38,100 bases of DNA from a virus: the IMG/VR virus record IMGVR_UViG_3300009529_000020, positions 1 to 38,100 of that record; one strand, 5' to 3'. The number at the start of each line of letters is the position of its first letter. Positions within the stretch are counted from its first letter, which is position 1. Under the pieces are notes generated by a model that was not told the DNA's origin, searched no databases, and saw nothing but the letters and a program-made list of their open reading frames with translations. This document shows, one piece after another, positions 15,828 to 33,164 of the stretch. The translations under genes were made by a program, and so were the position numbers.

Positions 15828-16139
15828 ATGGATCTAATATCCGTAGCATACTACACCGGACTCTTTGCCGGACTAATCATCTGGATGTTCTATCTCTACT
15901 GGATAAAGCATTCGGGCAATTCAATGATTATCTTCGACAAGAAGTACCTGGTTCCCTTCTTCATATCAGCTCTGATCGCAGCCTTTCAGCTGGCGTTAGA
16001 ACTGACAAGTAATCTCCCTGTGATCGCGTTTGCCGATCCTTGGACAGCATTCATCGCAGGCTTTACCATCTACGTTGCCATTCAGGAGATCTGGAAGGGA
16101 ATATTGAAGTACCCAAAGATAAATTATTTCAACAAGTAG
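15828..16139 (+). CDS. Small three-pass membrane protein, holin-like
   Basis: The 103-residue protein has three hydrophobic segments at about residues 5-27, 40-60 and 68-90, short loops and a Lys-rich C-terminal end (KYPKINYFNK). This size and topology match phage holins, but no holin family is recognised. It sits in its own short transcription unit, with a promoter-like box upstream and a GGTGA site before the ATG, in the middle of the baseplate genes. No endolysin is next to it. It may be a lysis protein or a small membrane protein acting on the host envelope. Confidence 0.55.
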   Translation: MDLISVAYYTGLFAGLIIWMFYLYWIKHSGNSMIIFDKKYLVPFFISALIAAFQLALELTSNLPVIAFADPWTAFIAGFTIYVAIQEIWKGILKYPKINYFNK

Positions 16140-16163: not shown

Positions 16164-16559
16164 TTGAGCAAGGATATAGTGGACTTCATTGGGACAGACT
16201 TGAAGTTTGACATGATAGAGAACGATCTCGAAGGAACGAGTGACGATCTGCTAACCGTGTCAGGCACTGATAACCTTGCTCAGGCTGTTTTTCTCAGACT
16301 TATGACACCAATGGGCACAGATCCATTCACTCCAGAATACGGTAGCAGGACACACTTTTTGCTAGGTAAGGGTCAGAGTGAAGAGAACGAACTGACGGCA
16401 GAGATGTATGTTGGTGAATCACTGCTCAGAGATCAGAGGATAGTAAGCGTGGATAAGATCACTGTACAATATGATGGTAATGAGTTGTCCATCTATGTCA
16501 CAGTCATAGGCATCAATTCTATCCAGCCAGTGGATGTAAGAACAAAGGTGAAAATATAA
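16164..16559 (+). CDS. Baseplate wedge protein, gp25 / gpW-like
   Basis: TTG at 16164 is taken as start because GGTGAT lies three bases before it and the residues that follow (MSKDIVDFIGTDLKF) fit the family start. The 131 residues contain FLRLMTPMGTDPFTPEYGSR, the typical 'L.T..G.....P.YGS' segment of the GPW/gp25 family, then a helix and two C-terminal strands. gp25-like proteins join sheath and baseplate wedge and trigger sheath polymerisation. The next gene, baseplate J, overlaps its stop by one base, the standard pair. Confidence 0.85.
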   Translation: MSKDIVDFIGTDLKFDMIENDLEGTSDDLLTVSGTDNLAQAVFLRLMTPMGTDPFTPEYGSRTHFLLGKGQSEENELTAEMYVGESLLRDQRIVSVDKITVQYDGNELSIYVTVIGINSIQPVDVRTKVKI

Positions 16560-18877
16560 TGGGTTACGAACTTCCTGATCTGAGAACTCCAGAAGAGATC
16601 CGTCAGCAGACCATTGATCAGATCGTCAGCGGCTACAAGCCTGTCTTTGAAGAGGCAATCACATTTCTCTCAGGTACATTGTATTACACATTAAACTGTG
16701 ATGGTGAGACCTCAAAAAAGGTCCATGATGCTCTCAAGGTCAAGGGGGAATTAGATGGCACAGAACATGAATTTGCACAGGCTAATGATTTCACACTATA
16801 CGATTCCACAGGTGACGGATTCTATGATCAGATATCCTTTGATGTTGGTGGCGACACGCCTGACACTAATACTGTGTTCTATGTCGATTATCGTTACATG
16901 ATTCCCCCAAGTGGTCTGACAGATACCACTGAGGGGTCAATACTAATGCAGGTAGTGGGGGCCGTAGCACTTCAGATCTACAAGGTGGAACTGCAGAATA
17001 ATTCAGTTGCTCGAGATAGCTTCGTTGACTCAGCAGACGGTCCTGAGTTGGATGAGCTTGGCAAACTGGTTGAAGTGTCCAGGAACATAGCAACCCGATC
17101 CACAGGATTTGTCACACTGGCAAGACCCTCTAGCATGGCTAATCAGGGAGTGGTGGAGATATCTGTGGGCACTCAGATAGGCACTGCTGGCAGTTCTTCG
17201 CTTCCCGCCATTACCTTTGAGACCACTGTCGCCGCTGAGATTGCCAACACAGAGACTGAGGCCAAGATCTCAGACCTGGCACATGCTGAATATGGTGCTG
17301 ATTGGATTCCAGTACAGAGCATCTATCCAGGTCTGACACAGAATGTCAGCAGTGGTAAGATCATCAAAAACGTCAATGCCGACTCTGTAATAACAACCAT
17401 CAATAATCCTTCCAGTTTCGATCAATCTGATGAGAGGGCTGATGGTACTGGCACTGCCCATGTATTTACACTTATCCACACTCCAGATGGATCCGGGTTT
17501 GTTGACAAAGATGCTGACAGTAAGGCCATCGAGATGGTGAACGAACTGGCCTATGGTTGGCTCGATCAACCATCAACTGGAACTCTTGTTAAGGCCACTA
17601 TCAAAGACACAGGTGGCACACCCCAATTATGGACAGGAAAGATCACTATTGTAGGATATGCAAACAGTGAACTGTTCTTCTCAGAGACCCTTACCTTCGA
17701 TGGAACCACAAACAATGAGACCACAACCAGTTCATTTGATCGAATATTTCACATTATCATTATAAAGTCAGGTGGTGGTGGTCTTGAGGCGACAAGATAT
17801 CTCACACTCGAGAACAGTGGAGCCACCGAGCAATACATTGACCATGAATCATGTGGTGCAAGAGTTGATTCTGGATTCCTGATTCTAAGACATACTTCGG
17901 ACTTGATGGTGTACCTGGATACTGGCACATGGACTCTACAGACAATCACGACTGATTATACTGTCAGTAATCCTACCTTTGGCGGGCTTACATGGACTCT
18001 CATTGATTGGGTCAGCTGGAAAACGGGTAGCAAGGTCAATAACGGAACGCAGAACGTCAAGTACGAGTACGTTCCTCATTCAGATTGGTATGTCCTCATA
18101 AATGACTCATTAGAACTCGAAGGAGCACCGCGATCAGCCTCATATCTCGAGGTTGACTATGCCTGGAACAATCCATTCCAGGATGGTGCTGATACTGAGG
18201 ATGATGATACCTATCGAGAGAGAATCAAGACGGGTGCCAGTAGAGCCGCAAAAGGAACTCTTGATGCAATCAGAGCTACAGTCCTGGCTGTGGATGGAAT
18301 AGTCGGTGCAACTGTTGACGATCACAGCACTGACGGCAGTATCAAGGTTGGTGAGATTTACGTCTATGCATGGACACAGGCGGGCGTTCTCACTGAGGCC
18401 AAGAGATCACAAGTATCTGATGCAGTTGAATCTAGTCGCGCCGCAGGAGTAAAACCGTACATCTATGGACCTGACCCAATATACATTGCAATAGAGGTTG
18501 ACGTGAAAGTCCTCACAGGATCAGGTTATACTCTTGCAGATGTGGAGACCTCTTGTGAAGACGCTCTTGAGGCATGGCTTGACGACTTTGAGATTGGTTC
18601 CGACATTATGGAGTCTGAATTGATATCAATGCTCGAGTCTGTTGCTGGCGTTGAATACATTGATGTTGACTCAATTGTTATGAAAGGATTTGAGAACCTT
18701 AGTGACACAACGCCCAGCACCAGGGAACCTCACACTGGAGGATGGAGTTGGACTGCTGGAACTCATTGGAATATCGTAGGGATTGCAACAGGATCCATTG
18801 TGAAACCTGACACCGATCAGACAGGCGGATCTGGAAGTTGTTATTACATTGACGTGACGGCTGTTTATGTGGGATGA
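16559..18877 (+). CDS. Baseplate J-like wedge protein
   Basis: The 772-residue protein starts LPDLRTPEEIRQQTIDQI, as in gpJ proteins. Residues 150-260 hold the usual ARDSFVDSADGPELDELG segment. The conserved core returns at about residue 540 with DDDTYRERIKTGASRAAKGT and VLAVDGIVGATV, followed by a C-terminal arm domain (IAIEVDVKVLTGSGYTLAD ... VAGVEYIDV). Between about 290 and 520 is a large beta-rich insertion. The protein is the main wedge component linking hub, gp25 and fibres. It overlaps gp25 by one base and the next gene by four (ATGA). Confidence 0.87.
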   Translation: MGYELPDLRTPEEIRQQTIDQIVSGYKPVFEEAITFLSGTLYYTLNCDGETSKKVHDALKVKGELDGTEHEFAQANDFTLYDSTGDGFYDQISFDVGGDTPDTNTVFYVDYRYMIPPSGLTDTTEGSILMQVVGAVALQIYKVELQNNSVARDSFVDSADGPELDELGKLVEVSRNIATRSTGFVTLARPSSMANQGVVEISVGTQIGTAGSSSLPAITFETTVAAEIANTETEAKISDLAHAEYGADWIPVQSIYPGLTQNVSSGKIIKNVNADSVITTINNPSSFDQSDERADGTGTAHVFTLIHTPDGSGFVDKDADSKAIEMVNELAYGWLDQPSTGTLVKATIKDTGGTPQLWTGKITIVGYANSELFFSETLTFDGTTNNETTTSSFDRIFHIIIIKSGGGGLEATRYLTLENSGATEQYIDHESCGARVDSGFLILRHTSDLMVYLDTGTWTLQTITTDYTVSNPTFGGLTWTLIDWVSWKTGSKVNNGTQNVKYEYVPHSDWYVLINDSLELEGAPRSASYLEVDYAWNNPFQDGADTEDDDTYRERIKTGASRAAKGTLDAIRATVLAVDGIVGATVDDHSTDGSIKVGEIYVYAWTQAGVLTEAKRSQVSDAVESSRAAGVKPYIYGPDPIYIAIEVDVKVLTGSGYTLADVETSCEDALEAWLDDFEIGSDIMESELISMLESVAGVEYIDVDSIVMKGFENLSDTTPSTREPHTGGWSWTAGTHWNIVGIATGSIVKPDTDQTGGSGSCYYIDVTAVYVG

Positions 18878-20367
18878 TCATGGAATTTGTACAAGACGAA
18901 CCACACGCATATACATCAGCACGGCTGGAGTACCAATTCAACAAGAGAGATCAAAGCAACTATGAGATCCTATATGTAAGAGGATTCAAGGTGCTTGACA
19001 GTGGCTCTGTGAACCATGTATTCATTCAGGGAGTTGATTACGAACTGAGAGATCAATACGTCTATTGGCTAGACGGAGATCGGCCATCGGTTCCCCCACC
19101 ATCATCTAATCTGACACAGAACTGGTTCTACATCACTTATGTCTACGAGAAGAGACCTGAACAGACAATCAAGAGTTCAGTCTATCCGTTCCTCAAGCCC
19201 AACGGTGTATTCACATCCATCCTTGATGCATTTGGTTCGCAGATCAGGCATGTCTATGAGAAAAGACGTGGCATGGTCAGAAGCAGAAGCCTCAGTTATT
19301 CCCTTGGAACAGAACTCGACATGCTTGGTGATTGGTACGGTGTCACACGTCTTGATGGCGAAACTGACATATCGTTCAGAGCGCGACTTTTTCAGTTCTT
19401 TTCCACCTATCTATCGTCAGGCAACAAAGAGGCCATCAGCAATGTCATAGAGGCTGTCACTGGCACTGTTCCCACAATTCTCGAGTTATGGGAAAATACA
19501 TCTTATTACAACTACGATCCTGCTGACCCAAGCATTCAGTATGTCTATTCATCAAAGACGAATCCACCAGCAGAGACTGAATCTCTTAAGATTGCCCATT
19601 ATTGGGACTTCACTAACACTCTCAATACTTTCTATGTCATTCTTCCTCTATCAGTGATCAACGAGTATGGCATATCAACACTGAAGGATATCATAGATGA
19701 GTCAAAGGCTTCTGGAGTGGTTGGGTATCTTGGATATCTTGTGAATGAGGACTTTGCAGTAGACGCAAGCAATTGGGAAGAGAGAGCCTGGGTGCTCGGG
19801 TCTGGTGACACCAGCAGTGGTGCATGGTCTGTGACAGGTGGCAAATACAGGTATCTTCACGCGCCAGGCGCTAGTGCGGCTACCAATGGACTCAGCGTGA
19901 TTGATGATACGGTATTCACGGGCTGTGATGATTGGCAAGAGTATCAAGTCACATGCTATGCCCAAGATGCGCTTGCTAACTCTGGTAACAAGGTTGGTAT
20001 CATGATCAGATGGGGCGATGAGACTGATGGGTATGGATACTTCCTTGGATTCTCAGCCTTTGCAGACAAAGCATATGCCTACAAGTACACTGTGGGTGGC
20101 TGGGCTGAGATAACAACGGGCGGTGTGGATACAAAATCCCTCACTGCTGGAACTAACTATCATCTCAGAGTGGTGATCAAGGGTTCAACAGCAAGATTTT
20201 ATCTGGACAATGACCTAGTATATGACAGTGTTGTTGAAGATGATGCCGCTGATTGGGATGATCTCACTAGCGGCAGAGTAGGATTCTGCGCCCTTACCAA
20301 CGTTGCTAGTGGCGGGTCAGGGAATGACGTGGATGCCTATTTTGACGACATGGTAGTGGTGATCTAA
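18874..20367 (+). CDS. gpI-like baseplate wedge protein with lectin-like C-terminal domain
   Basis: The N-terminal part (to about residue 290) contains LGTELDMLGDWYGVTRLDGE and SFRARLFQFFSTY, the pattern of tail protein I / YmfQ-like wedge proteins that follow gpJ. From about residue 295 a second domain starts: NEDFAVDASNWE, GKYRYLHAPGA, then GIMIRWGDETDGYGYFLGFS, a YHLRVVIKGSTARFYLDND strand and a final FDDMVVVI. This is the ordering of a concanavalin/LamG-like jelly roll, a common carbohydrate-binding fold. Fusion of a wedge protein to a glycan-binding domain suggests that the baseplate itself touches the host surface. The lectin call is by pattern only. Confidence 0.7.
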   Translation: MIMEFVQDEPHAYTSARLEYQFNKRDQSNYEILYVRGFKVLDSGSVNHVFIQGVDYELRDQYVYWLDGDRPSVPPPSSNLTQNWFYITYVYEKRPEQTIKSSVYPFLKPNGVFTSILDAFGSQIRHVYEKRRGMVRSRSLSYSLGTELDMLGDWYGVTRLDGETDISFRARLFQFFSTYLSSGNKEAISNVIEAVTGTVPTILELWENTSYYNYDPADPSIQYVYSSKTNPPAETESLKIAHYWDFTNTLNTFYVILPLSVINEYGISTLKDIIDESKASGVVGYLGYLVNEDFAVDASNWEERAWVLGSGDTSSGAWSVTGGKYRYLHAPGASAATNGLSVIDDTVFTGCDDWQEYQVTCYAQDALANSGNKVGIMIRWGDETDGYGYFLGFSAFADKAYAYKYTVGGWAEITTGGVDTKSLTAGTNYHLRVVIKGSTARFYLDNDLVYDSVVEDDAADWDDLTSGRVGFCALTNVASGGSGNDVDAYFDDMVVVI

Positions 20368-21902
20368 TGGCAAGAGGACTAATGCAAGCAATCAACATCT
20401 CTCCAGGACAGCCTGTATATGTTGAAGATTATAGAATGCAGGATCAGGGTCTGGAATGGAACGTACAGAATGAGTTTGACTACCGAATTGAGTACCTAAT
20501 GACCAACAGAGTTGTCATGTCTGAGATCTCCAGCGAGACTCTGTGGGGTCTCACTGGCTGGACTCCAGCAAACAGTCTTAAAATAACAATATTGACCGGA
20601 GTTCTACAATGTGCAATCGGCATGGCAGATATCGGGGGCCGAAGGTTCGTGCGAACAGGTGCCGGAGCCATATCTCCCACTGGCGTCACGACTGATGATG
20701 TTGATTATTGGATCAGGGCAAAGTACGACACAAGTGCTGATACTCACTCATTTGTTGCTGAACTAGCATCAGCATCACCGCAGGCAGATACTGACACAGA
20801 CAAGAGAGTCACCCTAGCCACCGCTCACTGGTTAAGCCCTAACTGGACAGGAACCCCTGTGGATAAGAGAACGTCAAACACCCAATTGACTCCACCTGCT
20901 GTGATATCAGGTGATGCAGGTTCAAATCCAGTGCTCAGCCTACATCAGGAAGGAAGTGGTCTAGGTCTCCTGGTCACTGGTGGAGATGTCTCAGTAGGAG
21001 ATGCTACCTATAATCAGCAGCTGATTGTCTATGGTACTAGCACCTATGGAATCACGATATATGACGATCCCAATGGATACTCAGTAGAGATGATTGCGGG
21101 TGCTGCCAACACTCTCAAGGTACAGACCATTGGTGGGGCTGCCGCTACGATCAATGTTGCCACACTCGATGCAGGATCAGTCAGTGGACTTGCAATAAGC
21201 GCGGGAACTATCAACAGTGGCATTTGGCAGGGAACCGCCATCGCAAATGCCTATGTTGCTGGTCTGGATCAAAACTGTCTGCAGGCATCATCACCAACAT
21301 TTGTCGGGCTTACTCTGTCGGGCAATATCGTCACAACAGGATTAGTTGACGGAACTGACATATCTGTTCATGTAGCCAATAATGATGCACATCACGCACA
21401 GAGCCACAATCTTGCTAGTCACTCAGACGTGACAATAGATGGGGCAACACACGAAGACCTTCACGCCTATGGCTCAGCTAATGCCACTTGGATAAATTGT
21501 CCACTAGAGGCTTGGACCCAAATTGGTGCTTTCCAGATTAATACCTTTGGTCGTCTTGTGAATACTGATGATACCAACGGATATGTATTCTACTCGGTAC
21601 CCTTACCAGCCAACAGAGGTAGTAAGACCCTCTACATCAATGGAACAAGAGTCAGTCTATCGGATGCTGATACTACCAATTGTGTGGATGAGACCATAAT
21701 CAAAGGATATTCAGATATTGATGTATCAAACCTTGATACTGATACTACGTCTAAGAACGCACCGGACCTATGGGAAGATTTGTCAATGGGGGCAGTAACT
21801 TGTAATGCTTATCATGGAATCAAAATCGAACTCGTTACCCAGCACTCTCTTGCCAATTCATTGGATATTCAAGTTGTGGCCGTGAGATACTACTATGCAT
21901 AA
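20367..21902 (+). CDS. Second tail fibre / receptor-binding protein
   Basis: The 511-residue protein starts at ATG 20367 with GGTGAT three bases upstream, overlapping the previous stop by one base. Residues 1-130 probably attach to the baseplate (PGQPVYVEDYRMQDQGLEW). The middle resembles repetitive fibre shafts (VSVGDATYNQQLIVYGTS, then GLTLSGNIVTTG). A DAHHAQSH motif like those of the first fibre precedes the C-terminal domain, about 143 residues from SANATWINCP to VRYYYA, shared with the first fibre. It is the last gene of the morphogenesis operon and ends against a convergent membrane-protein gene, overlapping it by ten bases. Confidence 0.78.
   Translation: MARGLMQAINISPGQPVYVEDYRMQDQGLEWNVQNEFDYRIEYLMTNRVVMSEISSETLWGLTGWTPANSLKITILTGVLQCAIGMADIGGRRFVRTGAGAISPTGVTTDDVDYWIRAKYDTSADTHSFVAELASASPQADTDTDKRVTLATAHWLSPNWTGTPVDKRTSNTQLTPPAVISGDAGSNPVLSLHQEGSGLGLLVTGGDVSVGDATYNQQLIVYGTSTYGITIYDDPNGYSVEMIAGAANTLKVQTIGGAAATINVATLDAGSVSGLAISAGTINSGIWQGTAIANAYVAGLDQNCLQASSPTFVGLTLSGNIVTTGLVDGTDISVHVANNDAHHAQSHNLASHSDVTIDGATHEDLHAYGSANATWINCPLEAWTQIGAFQINTFGRLVNTDDTNGYVFYSVPLPANRGSKTLYINGTRVSLSDADTTNCVDETIIKGYSDIDVSNLDTDTTSKNAPDLWEDLSMGAVTCNAYHGIKIELVTQHSLANSLDIQVVAVRYYYA
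21471..21902 (+). repeat. Fibre C-terminal domain copy 2
   Basis: This block is the counterpart of 15082-15516. The first 35 bases are nearly identical while the middle has diverged (for example the segment after WINCP), which suggests duplication followed by diversification or recurrent exchange of tip sequences. Confidence 0.75.
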
Positions 21903-22381
21903 ATTGTTGGTCTTTGGTCTTGCCACCATCTAATCTCAGAGAATCCAACCGCAAACACTACTATGGCAGGAATGGTCTGCAACATCAAATACCACATCAT
22001 GTTTGACTGCACGAGAAGCCCGATTTGAACACCGTATATCTCTGAAATTAGAACAGATGACACTTCGACTATTCCATTTGCTAACCCGAAGACTGCTATT
22101 ATTAGCGATGGTCTTGACTTTATCACTGTTATTCCAGCTACCGCGAATACAAACCAACCACCGAAAAAGGATGCAAGCATTCGGATATTAAAACTAGGTA
22201 CTATAAGAGGGCGTGTAGTGAATGCAAAGAATGGGTCAAACATTATCCCAAACTCTGCTGGAATGCCAAATATCCAATACGCTAACCAGTGCCCAAACTC
22301 ATGCATCGGCATATACAGCAACGTAAGCACGAACATCACTACAGCGTCATTCTTTGTGAACTCTTCACCATACCAATGCAT
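21893..22381 (-). CDS. Small integral-membrane HExxH protein (M50-like zincin candidate)
   Basis: ATG 22381 is taken as start because a TATA-like box lies about 26 bases upstream, which would make the mRNA leaderless; a GTG at 22390 is also possible. The 162-residue protein has about four to five hydrophobic segments. Near residue 27, at the end of the first segment, is MHEFGHWLAYWIFGIPAEF, an HExxH motif followed by a Gly/Pro turn, as in site-2-protease-like or related intramembrane zincins. A clear third ligand motif (N-x2-P-x4-LDG) is not visible; GLANGIVEVS near residue 105 is the only candidate. It may be a membrane protease, or a relative that has kept only the motif. It is on the opposite strand to its neighbours. 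Confidence 0.6.
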   Translation of the reverse strand: MHWYGEEFTKNDAVVMFVLTLLYMPMHEFGHWLAYWIFGIPAEFGIMFDPFFAFTTRPLIVPSFNIRMLASFFGGWFVFAVAGITVIKSRPSLIIAVFGLANGIVEVSSVLISEIYGVQIGLLVQSNMMWYLMLQTIPAIVVFAVGFSEIRWWQDQRPTIYA

Positions 22382-22400
22382 ATTGTTCACACGTTACTAC

Positions 22401-22487: not shown

Positions 22488-22495
22488 TTTATAAT
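22488..22495 (+). promoter_or_regulatory. TATA-like box TTTATAAT, leaderless gene, with TTAGACTAA palindrome
   Basis: TTTATAAT is centred 26-27 bases before ATG 22519, so transcription should begin at or next to the start codon. No Shine-Dalgarno sequence is present. The 9-base palindrome TTAGACTAA (22504-22512), preceded by TAGTTAGT, lies between box and start, where a repressor could act. Confidence 0.55.
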
Positions 22496-22518: not shown

Positions 22519-23403
22519 ATGAACGAGATGCAGATCACGATACTATCCCTCATAGTGGGAGCGTTCTTTGGAGTGTTGAGAACATGGCAGACTCATGGAC
22601 TCAGACTGATACAACCTGCCTTCACTGTGAAAGATAGGACCATCAGGGTGAAGTTGGGTTGGATTGCCTCAGTATTGTTAGGTGCAGGGATCTCATGGAC
22701 ATCAGTCTCTGGATATCTATGGTTCTTCTATGAGACCATACCTGACACTTGGGCTGACGTTATCCTGGTATCCATGATGGCTGGCTACGGCAGTCTGGAT
22801 CTATTGAATCGACTAACAGGTAAGGACATTGTAGATCTTGATGCACACGAGTTTGCTGTCGCATATGGTGAGGTCAATCTGCAAAAGGCACTCATGATCG
22901 GAACCATGCTGAAGAATGTGGAATGTGTTGAGAGAATCCAGATCAGAGATGGCGAATACGGTGGGGTGGTCAATGTCTTCGTAGTTCCGAAGCCAGGATT
23001 TGACACTGAAGAATGTCGAAGAATAGTCGAGAACTATATGGCAAAGCATAGACCTGTTGGTGTTCAGTTCTATGTAGTGGCCGCTCATGAGGTCAGGATC
23101 AATATTGAACTGAAAGTGACACTGCTTGTCGTTGATGATGATAACCCAGCTGATTGGTACAAGGAAGAGATCACTAACAGAATCACTACGTACATCAATT
23201 CATTGATGCCTGGAGAATGGGTCAGAAAGAATAAGATGATCACTCGTGCTATCCAAGGATTCACATATGTCACGGATATCCCTGACGATAGTGTGATATC
23301 AGACCCCTCATTTGAAGAGAACTCATTCATCAAGATCGACAGGAACTATGTTGCACGAGCAATGAAAATAACAGTAAAGATCGTAGAGACCTCTCTCTAC
23401 TGA
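22519..23403 (+). CDS. Membrane-anchored protein with baseplate-J-like C-terminal domain
   Basis: The 294-residue protein has three hydrophobic segments at about residues 5-22, 48-72 and 80-95; the last continues into AGYGSLDLLNRLTGKD. The soluble part then resembles the C-terminal arm of baseplate protein J: GGVVNVFVVPKPGFDTEE, a helix, RPVGVQFYVVAAHEVRINIE, a second helix (YKEEITNRITTYINSLMPG), a start-of-helix motif WVRKNKMITRAIQG and FTYVTDI. The gpJ encoded at 16559 ends with the same order of elements. Known gpJ proteins have no membrane anchor. The gene is leaderless and separate from the tail operon. It could be a membrane-side partner of the baseplate or an unrelated use of the fold. 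Confidence 0.6.
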   Translation: MNEMQITILSLIVGAFFGVLRTWQTHGLRLIQPAFTVKDRTIRVKLGWIASVLLGAGISWTSVSGYLWFFYETIPDTWADVILVSMMAGYGSLDLLNRLTGKDIVDLDAHEFAVAYGEVNLQKALMIGTMLKNVECVERIQIRDGEYGGVVNVFVVPKPGFDTEECRRIVENYMAKHRPVGVQFYVVAAHEVRINIELKVTLLVVDDDNPADWYKEEITNRITTYINSLMPGEWVRKNKMITRAIQGFTYVTDIPDDSVISDPSFEENSFIKIDRNYVARAMKITVKIVETSLY

Positions 23404-24359
23404 ACATCCACAACTACTGCTCCAGGTTCATCGTACTTGTCCTCAGGAGTCCATATACCCACATCAGTACAGCTGATACGATCAGCACAGAATCCACATC
23501 TCATCTTGAATCCCATAACACCTGTTCGGATGCTATATGGAAGAGGTCTTGGATCATCCATGATGTGAGCGGCCTCGAAAAAATCCCCAAAATCCTGTCC
23601 GTACTTGTATAACTGATGCTCGGGCATTCCACCCTTGTTCTTGAGCAATACAGACCAGTTCTCTGAGTTGAGTGGGTACTTGCCATTCTGTGTAGCCTGT
23701 TCAAGGACTTCAGTCTCCTTTGCCATCCAACGGTACGCAGACAACTGAATAGGATGGTTCTTGTGCGGCCTCAGTGAGAACTTCCAATCTATGAGCGTGA
23801 CAACATCGTGTACCTCACATTGACACATAGGATCGCCAAGCACATGGATGCACTTCTTGAACTCATTGTCCTCAGACACGGTTCCCTTGAGCTTGACTCT
23901 TGCTATGAGATCTACGGTGCCTGCCAGCTTGTACTGTTTGCCATTCAGTTTGAACTTGTGAAATAGTCTCTTTTCTATGAATATGGGCGTGATATCGTAG
24001 GCATTCCAGAAGTGTTCAAAGTTTGCCATCATCTCTCGTAGTGGAATGACAAGTCGCTGGTTGTATATTTCCTTTTCGCGCCAATCGTTCAAGATCTTCT
24101 TGAACCCGGCATTGAGTCTGATAGGAGCGGGCTTTGCTAACCCAACCTTCTCATTTAGATTTGCATGGATTTTGTGGTGCCCAAAGGTTCCCACAATCAC
24201 AACAGCGTGGGTCTCTCGAGGTCGCTTAGGTTCTGCATGTTTTAACAGATATGCAGTCTGCTCACACTCGAGTGAGTTCAGCCATTCGCTGACCCTATCG
24301 TAGGTCTCATCATCGTGGTAGTACGGCACTACCGTTCCCTCAGTTTCAGGCTTCCCCAT
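23397..24359 (-). CDS. PD-(D/E)XK nuclease, RecB/Cas4-like
   Basis: The protein (320 residues from ATG 24359; a GTG at 24329 is an alternative start) shows all nuclease motifs in order: GTFGHHKIH (about 57-65), an acidic residue in FIEKRLF, AGTVDLIA with Asp150, TLIDWKFS with Asp191 and Lys193, and QLSAYRW (Gln205, Tyr209). The C-terminus has CGFCADRISC, which may be what remains of the Fe-S cluster cysteines of Cas4/AddB-type nucleases. Cas4/RecB-like exonucleases are common in archaeal viruses and act in replication or recombination. The start lies inside the winged-helix gene upstream (31-base overlap), so they are co-expressed. No CRISPR array or cas gene accompanies it. Confidence 0.85.
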   Translation of the reverse strand: MGKPETEGTVVPYYHDDETYDRVSEWLNSLECEQTAYLLKHAEPKRPRETHAVVIVGTFGHHKIHANLNEKVGLAKPAPIRLNAGFKKILNDWREKEIYNQRLVIPLREMMANFEHFWNAYDITPIFIEKRLFHKFKLNGKQYKLAGTVDLIARVKLKGTVSEDNEFKKCIHVLGDPMCQCEVHDVVTLIDWKFSLRPHKNHPIQLSAYRWMAKETEVLEQATQNGKYPLNSENWSVLLKNKGGMPEHQLYKYGQDFGDFFEAAHIMDDPRPLPYSIRTGVMGFKMRCGFCADRISCTDVGIWTPEDKYDEPGAVVVDVQ

Positions 24360-27925: not shown

Positions 27926-29029
27926 ATGGTTGAAGATAAAGGTCTGACAGTGTTTCCTAATACCCTGGGAGTCAAACTTGGTAGCAAGTGGACTGTCATG
28001 TATGGGATTCCTGTCGGTGAGAACCCACGAAAGGAACTGACCTGCATTCGTAAAGTACCAACACACCTGATCAAGAAAGATGAGTCTGTGTTTGAATACA
28101 GCACTAATGCAGATCCATACCACAACACAATATACCCACTCATTCATGGTGCTCCACGCAACGATGCTGAGGTTCCATTGGGGGTGTCCTGTGAACTACT
28201 TCTTGAATATGCTAATTGGCTGTTAAAAGACATTCCCAGAGATGTTGGAATTGTCTTTTGTCTGCCCATGATTAAGTTCAAAGAAGGACTGTTCGCACTC
28301 AAGGACACCCTTGGACTGTTAGAACATGGCAAGAAGATAGGCATAGAGTTCATTGGTGAGGCCTGGGCAGCAGCTCTGTCTGCAATGCCGATACGTGAGG
28401 CTCTGAGAAAGCAAGTGCTATCTCTCAACTTCGGTTCCAGCACCCTTGAGTCCGTCTTTTTCTCGGGACTCGATCTCATTGATCAGGCTGTCTGGACATT
28501 CGGTGGTTCAGATATTGATAGACGACTCGTTAATGCCTTTGAGCAGGCAACAAGAGGACTCACTGCAACTGAGAGCCAAGCCAGAGCAATCAAGGAACGA
28601 TACAATCATGGTACGAATGAAGATATCCCTGCTGAACTCACTCGAAAGGGTGCTCTCAGCCAAGAGAAGATTTCAGGAGACACCATCAAAGAGGTCGTAG
28701 ATTGGTATATCGTTGAGGTAGCCAACAGGGTCAGGGACTTTCTGGACTTTGCAAGAACCAAGAGCACGGAATCAAGAACTGCAATCAACGCATTTCAGAT
28801 TGAAGGTGAAGGATATCTAGCTCTTGTTGGTGGAATGATGAACATGCCAGGATTCTCAGAGGCTGTGTACAAGGAACTCGTTAAATCAGGTGGAATATCA
28901 AAGAGAGTTGAAATGGTATCGCCTGATGATGGGGTTATTGCACCAGCAATTGGAGCCTGGAAAGCTGCTAATATCTTAGAGGAAGAGAGAAAAGAGCAGG
29001 GAGTGGCAAACTGGTCTAACATAGAATAG
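27926..29029 (+). CDS. Actin/MreB-fold protein with altered phosphate loops
   Basis: The 367-residue protein matches the length and motif order of MreB/ParM-like proteins. LGVKLGSKWTVMYG (about 14-27) is in the place of phosphate-1 (MreB IGIDLGTANTLVY). FIGEAWAAAL (142-151), SLNFGSSTLES (166-176) in phosphate-2 position, GGSDIDRRL (193-201) and VGGMMNMPGF (301-310, adenosine motif) follow. The aspartates usually found in the two phosphate loops appear as Lys17 and Asn168, so hydrolysis may be weak or absent. It heads the operon with the terminase. A role in DNA segregation, filament scaffolding or positioning of the packaging apparatus is possible. The fold call is well supported; the function is inference. 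Confidence 0.78.
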   Translation: MVEDKGLTVFPNTLGVKLGSKWTVMYGIPVGENPRKELTCIRKVPTHLIKKDESVFEYSTNADPYHNTIYPLIHGAPRNDAEVPLGVSCELLLEYANWLLKDIPRDVGIVFCLPMIKFKEGLFALKDTLGLLEHGKKIGIEFIGEAWAAALSAMPIREALRKQVLSLNFGSSTLESVFFSGLDLIDQAVWTFGGSDIDRRLVNAFEQATRGLTATESQARAIKERYNHGTNEDIPAELTRKGALSQEKISGDTIKEVVDWYIVEVANRVRDFLDFARTKSTESRTAINAFQIEGEGYLALVGGMMNMPGFSEAVYKELVKSGGISKRVEMVSPDDGVIAPAIGAWKAANILEEERKEQGVANWSNIE

Positions 29030-32450: not shown

Positions 32451-33164
32451 ATGAGTGACAACACCACCAGTAACACAAACGGTGTGTCAAATGTCGAATC
32501 CACAGTCAAGAAACTAAACCTAATCGCCTTTACTATCACAGTCACTTTGCTTGCTGTTCACATATTAATTCCAATTGACATAGAAACCGCATACAACATA
32601 ATGATATCCCTCATACTGTCTAGCCTGTTTCTTGGTATATTAACTGCGGCTTCGGTCATGACGTACAGTAAACGTGACATCATTAGGATCACCCAGCCTC
32701 ATGGTAATCTGAAAGGAATACACAGGCTTCTGAGTACCACATTCTCTCACTCATTCGATCTGATTGTGTCTCCTGCTCTCATTCTCATGGTGTTCAACAA
32801 TGTTGCACCATATTATGACTACATCAATCTGAATCTAGCAACACTAGCTACTGCTGCATTCATAATCATTACATTAGTTCAATTGGCTCCACTCAAGGTG
32901 AGAAAGGATATTTATTTCAGACTTGCCAAGACTGAGATCAGAGAGTCGATTAATGATATTACTCTGGCCAGATGCATGAGAGAAGGGCTTGATCGCAGAA
33001 AGAGAGAATACAAACATCTCTATCAGAGTCAGATTGATGCAGAGACTCTGATCAGAGCACACATGGAGTTCCTTACCTTATCACACGAAGTTGCCGCCCT
33101 TCTCACATCAATGGCTAGGTTCCTTCTGCCCATTGCCGGGAGTGTATTCAACTTGTTCTTTTGA
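32451..33164 (+). CDS. Multi-pass membrane protein
   Basis: The 237-residue protein has an N-terminal Ser/Thr/Asn-rich segment, four hydrophobic helices at about 22-42, 47-72, 102-122 and 129-150, a charged helical stretch (REGLDRRKREYKHLYQSQ) and a final hydrophobic helix ending FNLFF. It follows TerL by 18 bases in the same operon. I recognise no family. Roles might be virion-membrane, lysis or host-envelope modification; none is shown. Confidence 0.55.
   Translation: MSDNTTSNTNGVSNVESTVKKLNLIAFTITVTLLAVHILIPIDIETAYNIMISLILSSLFLGILTAASVMTYSKRDIIRITQPHGNLKGIHRLLSTTFSHSFDLIVSPALILMVFNNVAPYYDYINLNLATLATAAFIIITLVQLAPLKVRKDIYFRLAKTEIRESINDITLARCMREGLDRRKREYKHLYQSQIDAETLIRAHMEFLTLSHEVAALLTSMARFLLPIAGSVFNLFF

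Follow-up and report, generated by a model that had tools for sequence, protein, structure and literature searches.

The tmJ locus and its genomic setting

The stretch of DNA analysed here, called the window, is the 38.1 kb IMG/VR record IMGVR_UViG_3300009529_000020, in which the genes of a contractile tail (sheath, tube-like protein, gp25-like protein, gpJ, and gpI-like protein) are found together with a large terminase gene. The sheath gene matches phrog_279 (E 3e-40), and the best match of the terminase is Halogranum tailed virus 1. Behind the tail-fibre gene and outside the gp25-gpJ-gpI operon lies the gene named here tmJ, whose product fuses a hydrophobic N-terminal domain to the C-terminal arm of gpJ (Table 1).

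Table 1. Features of the tmJ gene, its surroundings and the baseplate genes of the window
Feature	Residues	Position	Strand	Remark
tmJ gene		22519..23403	+	294 aa; hydrophobic N-terminal domain, then gpJ C-terminal arm
Hydrophobic segment 1 of tmJ	4-22	22528..22584	+	firm; apparent insertion score -0.5
Basic loop of tmJ	23-45	22585..22653	+	predicted cytoplasmic
Hydrophobic segment 2 of tmJ	46-64	22654..22710	+	probable; score 1.0
Hydrophobic segment 3 of tmJ	78-96	22750..22806	+	marginal; score 3.0
gpJ arm domain of tmJ	109-294	22843..23400	+	Pfam, PHROG, arm HMM, alignment
PF04865 match in tmJ	139-238	22933..23232	+	
TATA-like box TTTATAAT		22488..22495	+	23 nt before tmJ ATG; resemblance to consensus only
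Divergent neighbour of tmJ		21893..22390	-	multi-helix membrane protein, HEFGH zinc-protease motif
PD-(D/E)XK exonuclease-like gene		23397..24359	-	conserved right border of variable slot, directly after tmJ
gp25-like baseplate wedge protein		16164..16559	+	phrog_975 E 1e-22
Ordinary gpJ		16559..18877	+	772 aa; arm at its residues 549-740; predicted partner of tmJ arm
gpI-like baseplate protein		18874..20367	+	phrog_1160 E 7e-9

A close relative, IMGVR_UViG_3300029813_000075 (L002-L005), is 85% identical to the window in DNA and encodes DNA polymerase B, portal and capsid proteins and a weak TFIIB-type zinc ribbon protein, which is accompanied in L003/L004 by several DNA methyltransferases and a PAPS-reductase-like gene. 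On the 76 kb contig of this relative the positions of the two window ends are about 46 kb apart, so the window is probably part of a larger genome of some 85 kb; by the same comparison the capsid, portal and polymerase genes fall within the missing part. The host of this tailed virus is likely archaeal, as suggested by the zinc ribbon protein, the TATA-like boxes, the salactin-like actin and the terminase match. The actin-family gene (27926-29029, +) matches Pfam Salactin (E 5e-25), and its product, which is 88% identical to its counterpart in L002 and 65% to that in L236 (a second relative, described below), is a conserved viral protein related to salactin, the actin of haloarchaea; no structure solved so far was found to be close to it. 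Directly 3' of the terminase gene, a strongly hydrophobic protein of 237 aa with three predicted membrane helices is encoded (32451-33164, +), for which a family match was sought and none was found.

The place beside gp25 and gpI in the wedge operon is occupied by the ordinary gpJ, with tmJ 3.6 kb downstream. The gene at 16559 had previously been taken for the true gpJ of this virus, and its matches to PF04865 (E 1.6e-17) and phrog_6 (E 4e-37) confirm this. In their N-terminal parts, gpJ and the gpI-like protein are alike and both match phrog_1160, pointing to a shared or duplicated baseplate domain. Beside gp25 and gpJ there is also a gene for a conserved 103-aa membrane protein (15828-16139, +), a holin candidate, with homologues at L005:18476-18790, L233:2246-2569 and, weakly, L236:9072-9422 (other strand).

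The TATA-like box upstream of tmJ is of the archaeal type, and a transcript started from it would be leaderless or nearly so. In the second relative, IMGVR_UViG_3300022540_000315 (L236), a matching gene order is found, gp25-gpJ-gpI-fibre-[slot]-exonuclease-helicase-actin, but the slot holds a gene for a tail-anchored coiled-coil protein of 132 aa that has a single hydrophobic helix at its C-terminus. Since different genes lie between fibre and exonuclease in the window and in L236, this site is a variable slot, and the simplest account would be that tmJ is a self-contained module inserted there. The L236 protein resembles a holin PHROG only weakly (E 0.046); its layout is similar to that of XhlA-type lysis proteins, but it has no Pfam XhlA match, and this assignment was rejected. 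The divergent neighbour of tmJ, the HEFGH protein gene, is absent from the corresponding place in L236. Its 165-aa product has weak similarity to DUF3267/Peptidase_M50, below the cut-offs, and if it were an intramembrane-type protease, its presence in a virus would be unusual.

A gpJ arm joined to hydrophobic segments

The frame of tmJ, placed correctly at 22519-23403 in the earlier note, is a real coding frame, with the codon usage of the other genes of the virus (0.28 bits per codon, compared with -0.12 to 0.04 for the other five frames). Its C-terminal half matches Pfam Baseplate_J (PF04865) with E 8.7e-9 and 35.5 bits, above the curated cut-off of 21.1, a six-frame search with the same family scores it at 35.8 bits, and it also matches two phage tail families, phrog_1608 (E 2.4e-9) and phrog_6 (E 2.8e-9). 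For comparison, 60 regions around gpJ genes from archaeal genomes, with 3,922 ORFs, were used; a phmmer search of these with tmJ residues 109-294 found mainly gpJ ORFs. An HMM built from 16 gpJ arms without tmJ recovers it with 48.2 bits (E 2.3e-13), a result that is mildly circular, as the arms were chosen, trimmed and aligned together with tmJ, whereas the Pfam and PHROG results are independent. Chance likeness was ruled out, since 2,000 shuffled sequences reached at most 9.2 bits with the arm HMM. The alignment begins with the helix that precedes the first strand and reaches the final 'EN..I..D...AR...I.V' strands, and the conserved core motifs RPVGV, GE..., V.DI and EN..I..D...AR...I.V are kept. 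The order of gpJ-arm elements described in the earlier note for this half is thus upheld by Pfam, PHROG, the arm HMM and the shuffles, although the arm begins about 40 residues before the first element named there, VNVFVVP.

The whole gpJ arm is therefore present in tmJ, at about residues 109-288, and the N-terminal domains of gpJ are absent: only positions 150-250 of the 255 in the Baseplate_J profile are covered, and residues 1-105 are hydrophobic. The arm is very divergent, with an end branch of 8.6 in the tree and at most 30% identity to every arm compared. It does not group with the gpJ of the same virus in the tree, where its branch is too long to be placed, and a recent duplication of that gpJ arm is not supported, the virus's own gpJ giving 6.8 bits against 25.0 bits for the gpJ of L183.

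The hydrophobic segments of the N-terminal half lie within residues 4-97 and were scored with an approximate insertion scale in a custom script, not with a trained predictor. Of the three N-terminal helices originally described, those at 4-22 and 46-64 stand as firm and probable, respectively, but the one at 78-96 is marginal, and its score is matched by the best segments in soluble control proteins (3.0-3.9). Residues 21-47 contain six K/R and one D/E, and the charged residues of the loop 71-79 are acidic only, which predicts an N-terminus outside the cell. If all three segments span the membrane, the arm is predicted to be cytoplasmic; if only two do, it is predicted to lie outside. No family above cut-off and no holin model was found for the N-terminus in Pfam, PHROGs or NCBIfam; DUF4257 (PF14074), with 17.9 bits against a cut-off of 27, is a lead only. 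An origin of the N-terminal half from the small membrane protein that the virus encodes at 15828-16139 was considered and set aside, since the layout is similar but no homology to the tmJ N-terminus was detected. Among ORFs of the other loci that match the arm HMM, none has two membrane-like segments and a few weak matches have one; the gpJ ORFs of the 60 archaeal loci lack the helix pair, in agreement with the earlier remark that gpJs are not membrane proteins.

Two AlphaFold models of tmJ, made without a deep alignment, have mean pLDDT values of 50 and 54 and are thus of low confidence. A structural match to gpJ, which the earlier note had suggested seeking, was obtained for the first of them at that low confidence, with T4 gp6 as the best PDB match (E 4e-3) and diffocin and phiCD508 baseplate chains close behind, but not for the second, in which the arm was modelled with two gpJ arms and which matched generic ferredoxin-like domains; a VIA-align comparison of this second model gave no baseplate chain among the matches listed, a result that carries no weight alone. 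A membrane protein of the CDF/RND kind with a ferredoxin-like domain was rejected, as it has low-confidence fold matches only and no Pfam sequence support. The predicted structures neither prove nor contradict the profile result.

Occurrence of the fusion and likeness to known systems

The fusion found in tmJ is a single occurrence, in one genome. Searches with the whole protein found no relative among viral contigs, species genomes and phages or in 393 Halobacteriota genomes, although the contig scans, which rely on exact matches of short peptides, may miss distant ones, and plasmids gave insignificant matches to the arm only (E 0.3 or worse). An arm-only gpJ was sought in about 1,200 archaeal genomes (393 Halobacteriota, 398 Thermoproteota, 390 Thermoplasmatota and 28 from the phylum to which a Thermococci archaeon belongs). 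Baseplate_J matches were present in 45, 10 and 5 genomes of the first three groups, respectively, and in none of the four groups was an arm-only gpJ like tmJ found, with the exception of one gpJ reported as three pieces of one frame. Proteins like tmJ would have been seen in this survey, since tmJ itself is recovered by the identical search. The proposal to look for the same fusion in archaeal viral and cellular genomes has thus yielded no second case. In the 85% identical relative the 8.8 kb segment concerned is missing from the contig, and the 76 kb and 46 kb relatives are uninformative on the conservation of tmJ because their contigs end at or before it. In the searchable literature no description of such a fusion of gpJ arm and membrane helices was found, and it looks new.

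With the Baseplate_J/gpJ family (PF04865; T4 gp6, P2 gpJ, Cis11) tmJ shares the whole C-terminal arm, above the cut-off, but it differs in lacking the N-terminal domains, in possessing hydrophobic helices and in its position outside the gp25-gpJ-gpI operon of a genome that has a normal gpJ too. The profile of phrog_1608, a 192-residue 'tail protein', seemingly corresponds to the arm alone, since residues 541-696 of the virus's own gpJ align to its positions 2-159, and arm-only tail proteins therefore appear to exist; judging from the profile coordinates, 192 positions starting at the arm would leave no space for a membrane domain like that of tmJ. Class I holins have three segments, an N-out/C-in topology and about 100 residues. 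The loop charges of tmJ fit this pattern, and its small membrane domain would be like theirs if the marginal third segment spans, but tmJ matches no holin profile and has a 186-residue arm in place of a short charged tail.

Dedicated membrane anchors of contractile systems can be compared with tmJ by description only, and working in an anchor-like manner would not amount to membership in their families. In the haloarchaeal T6SS a putative membrane anchor, Hbor_38620, consists of helices and a cytoplasmic domain of about 150 residues (PMC11566945). It combines membrane helices with a soluble domain, as predicted for tmJ, and is linked to a contractile system of an archaeon; unlike tmJ, it has six predicted helices, and the main text of the paper does not say what its soluble domain is. 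In the thylakoid CIS (tCIS) of Anabaena the system is tied to the membrane by Cis13 (PMC8894136), and for CisA of Streptomyces a contact with the gpJ homologue Cis11 is predicted (PMC12237407). Both have a membrane helix, as predicted for tmJ, and tie a contractile system to the membrane or help to bring it there, as tmJ might do. However, Cis13 has a fibre-like and CisA a substrate-binding-like domain, neither has been described as a gpJ arm, and both are cellular, whereas tmJ is viral.

A possible membrane tether for the tail and its alternatives

The arms of gpJ proteins connect neighbouring wedges of the baseplate, as in T4 gp6, and an arm bound to the membrane could therefore seat itself in a wedge contact. 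It is proposed that tmJ tethers the contractile tail of its own virus to the membrane, gripping baseplate wedges on the inner side, a reading that we consider possible, with the odds somewhat against it. The N-terminal helices would put tmJ in the cytoplasmic membrane of the host, and its arm, derived from a wedge protein of the gpJ type (T4 gp6/Cis11), could pack against the arms of baseplate gpJ, mimicking the contacts between neighbouring wedges. With three spans the arm would be in the cytoplasm, and assembling or finished tails might be held on the inner side of the membrane, which would serve to order their assembly or to position them ahead of release. In favour of a tether are the complete arm with its conserved motifs, the profile matches, the N-out/C-in charges with three spans, the intact gpJ whose own arm is a possible partner, and the helix pair absent from other gpJ ORFs; the dedicated baseplate anchors cited above may serve as precedents in kind (PMC11566945, PMC8894136, PMC12237407). 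Against it, there is no homologue in which conservation or selection could be tested, the divergent arm, with only 6.8 bits of likeness to the virus's own gpJ, may have lost its original interface, the marginal third helix, if it does not span, would leave the arm outside the cell, and tmJ stands apart from the tail operon, has a promoter of its own and is missing at this place from L236. The earlier interpretation is borne out by the profile evidence as far as a hydrophobic-helix protein with a gpJ arm is concerned, while docking, superinfection control and release stay candidate roles on the sequence evidence.

Phage lysis genes are usually found behind the tail-fibre gene, which is where tmJ lies, and its size and loop charges suit the class I holin topology. 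It might thus be a release protein with a holin-like N-terminal domain, whose arm binds wedges or completed baseplates and thereby tunes the timing, the membrane opening only when tails are ready. The L236 slot protein, with its single C-terminal helix and faint holin likeness, fits this idea. However, the tmJ N-terminus belongs to no recognised holin family, no endolysin gene was recognised, and the small membrane protein encoded at 15828-16139, kept in at least three relatives, could be the holin instead; a role in release seems unlikely. Somewhat more improbable is a 'moron' gene for superinfection control, the membrane-bound arm acting as a decoy that jams the baseplates of incoming related virions. 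The separate TATA-like box, the divergent neighbour and the slot content differing from L236 would suit such a gene, and two spanning segments alone would expose the arm outside. With three segments, however, it is inside, beyond the reach of incoming baseplates, and its distance from the virus's own gpJ is odd for a decoy against close relatives.

The very long branch and the low identity to any arm compared could also mean reuse of the arm to bind something that has nothing to do with baseplates, such as a membrane complex of the host, in which case the gpJ ancestry would say nothing about present function. In line with this, the first domain of the arm is ferredoxin-like in the low-confidence models, a fold common in other membrane proteins. 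Such reuse is improbable for a contractile-tail virus with tail genes adjacent to tmJ and with the full arm length and conserved motifs kept. A chimeric assembly or a decaying gene fragment, which the single record and the missing segment in the 85% identical relative (hence no second copy) might suggest, is very improbable: the 294 codons form a single open frame with the virus's codon usage and a TATA-like box, and the exonuclease gene directly after tmJ also borders the slot in L236.

The fusion itself is real, yet it is a singleton whose arm is very divergent, and we infer rather than observe membrane insertion, topology, arm-arm binding, purpose and every other functional step. The construct is small and testable: it has two domains, and the same genome encodes its one predicted partner. 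A further-reaching reading, conceivable but rather doubtful, is that by this fusion the virus has made itself a dedicated receptor in the membrane to which its baseplates bind, and that assembly or waiting of tails, or the triggering of release, takes place on the inner side of the membrane; if true, it would be the viral equivalent of T6SS docking, or a checkpoint that couples tail assembly to lysis. Should the arm bind wedges, tmJ would provide a ready-made link between contractile tail and membrane in one polypeptide, and would bear both on the possible route from free phage tails to membrane-docked secretion systems and on the assembly and exit of tailed archaeal viruses.
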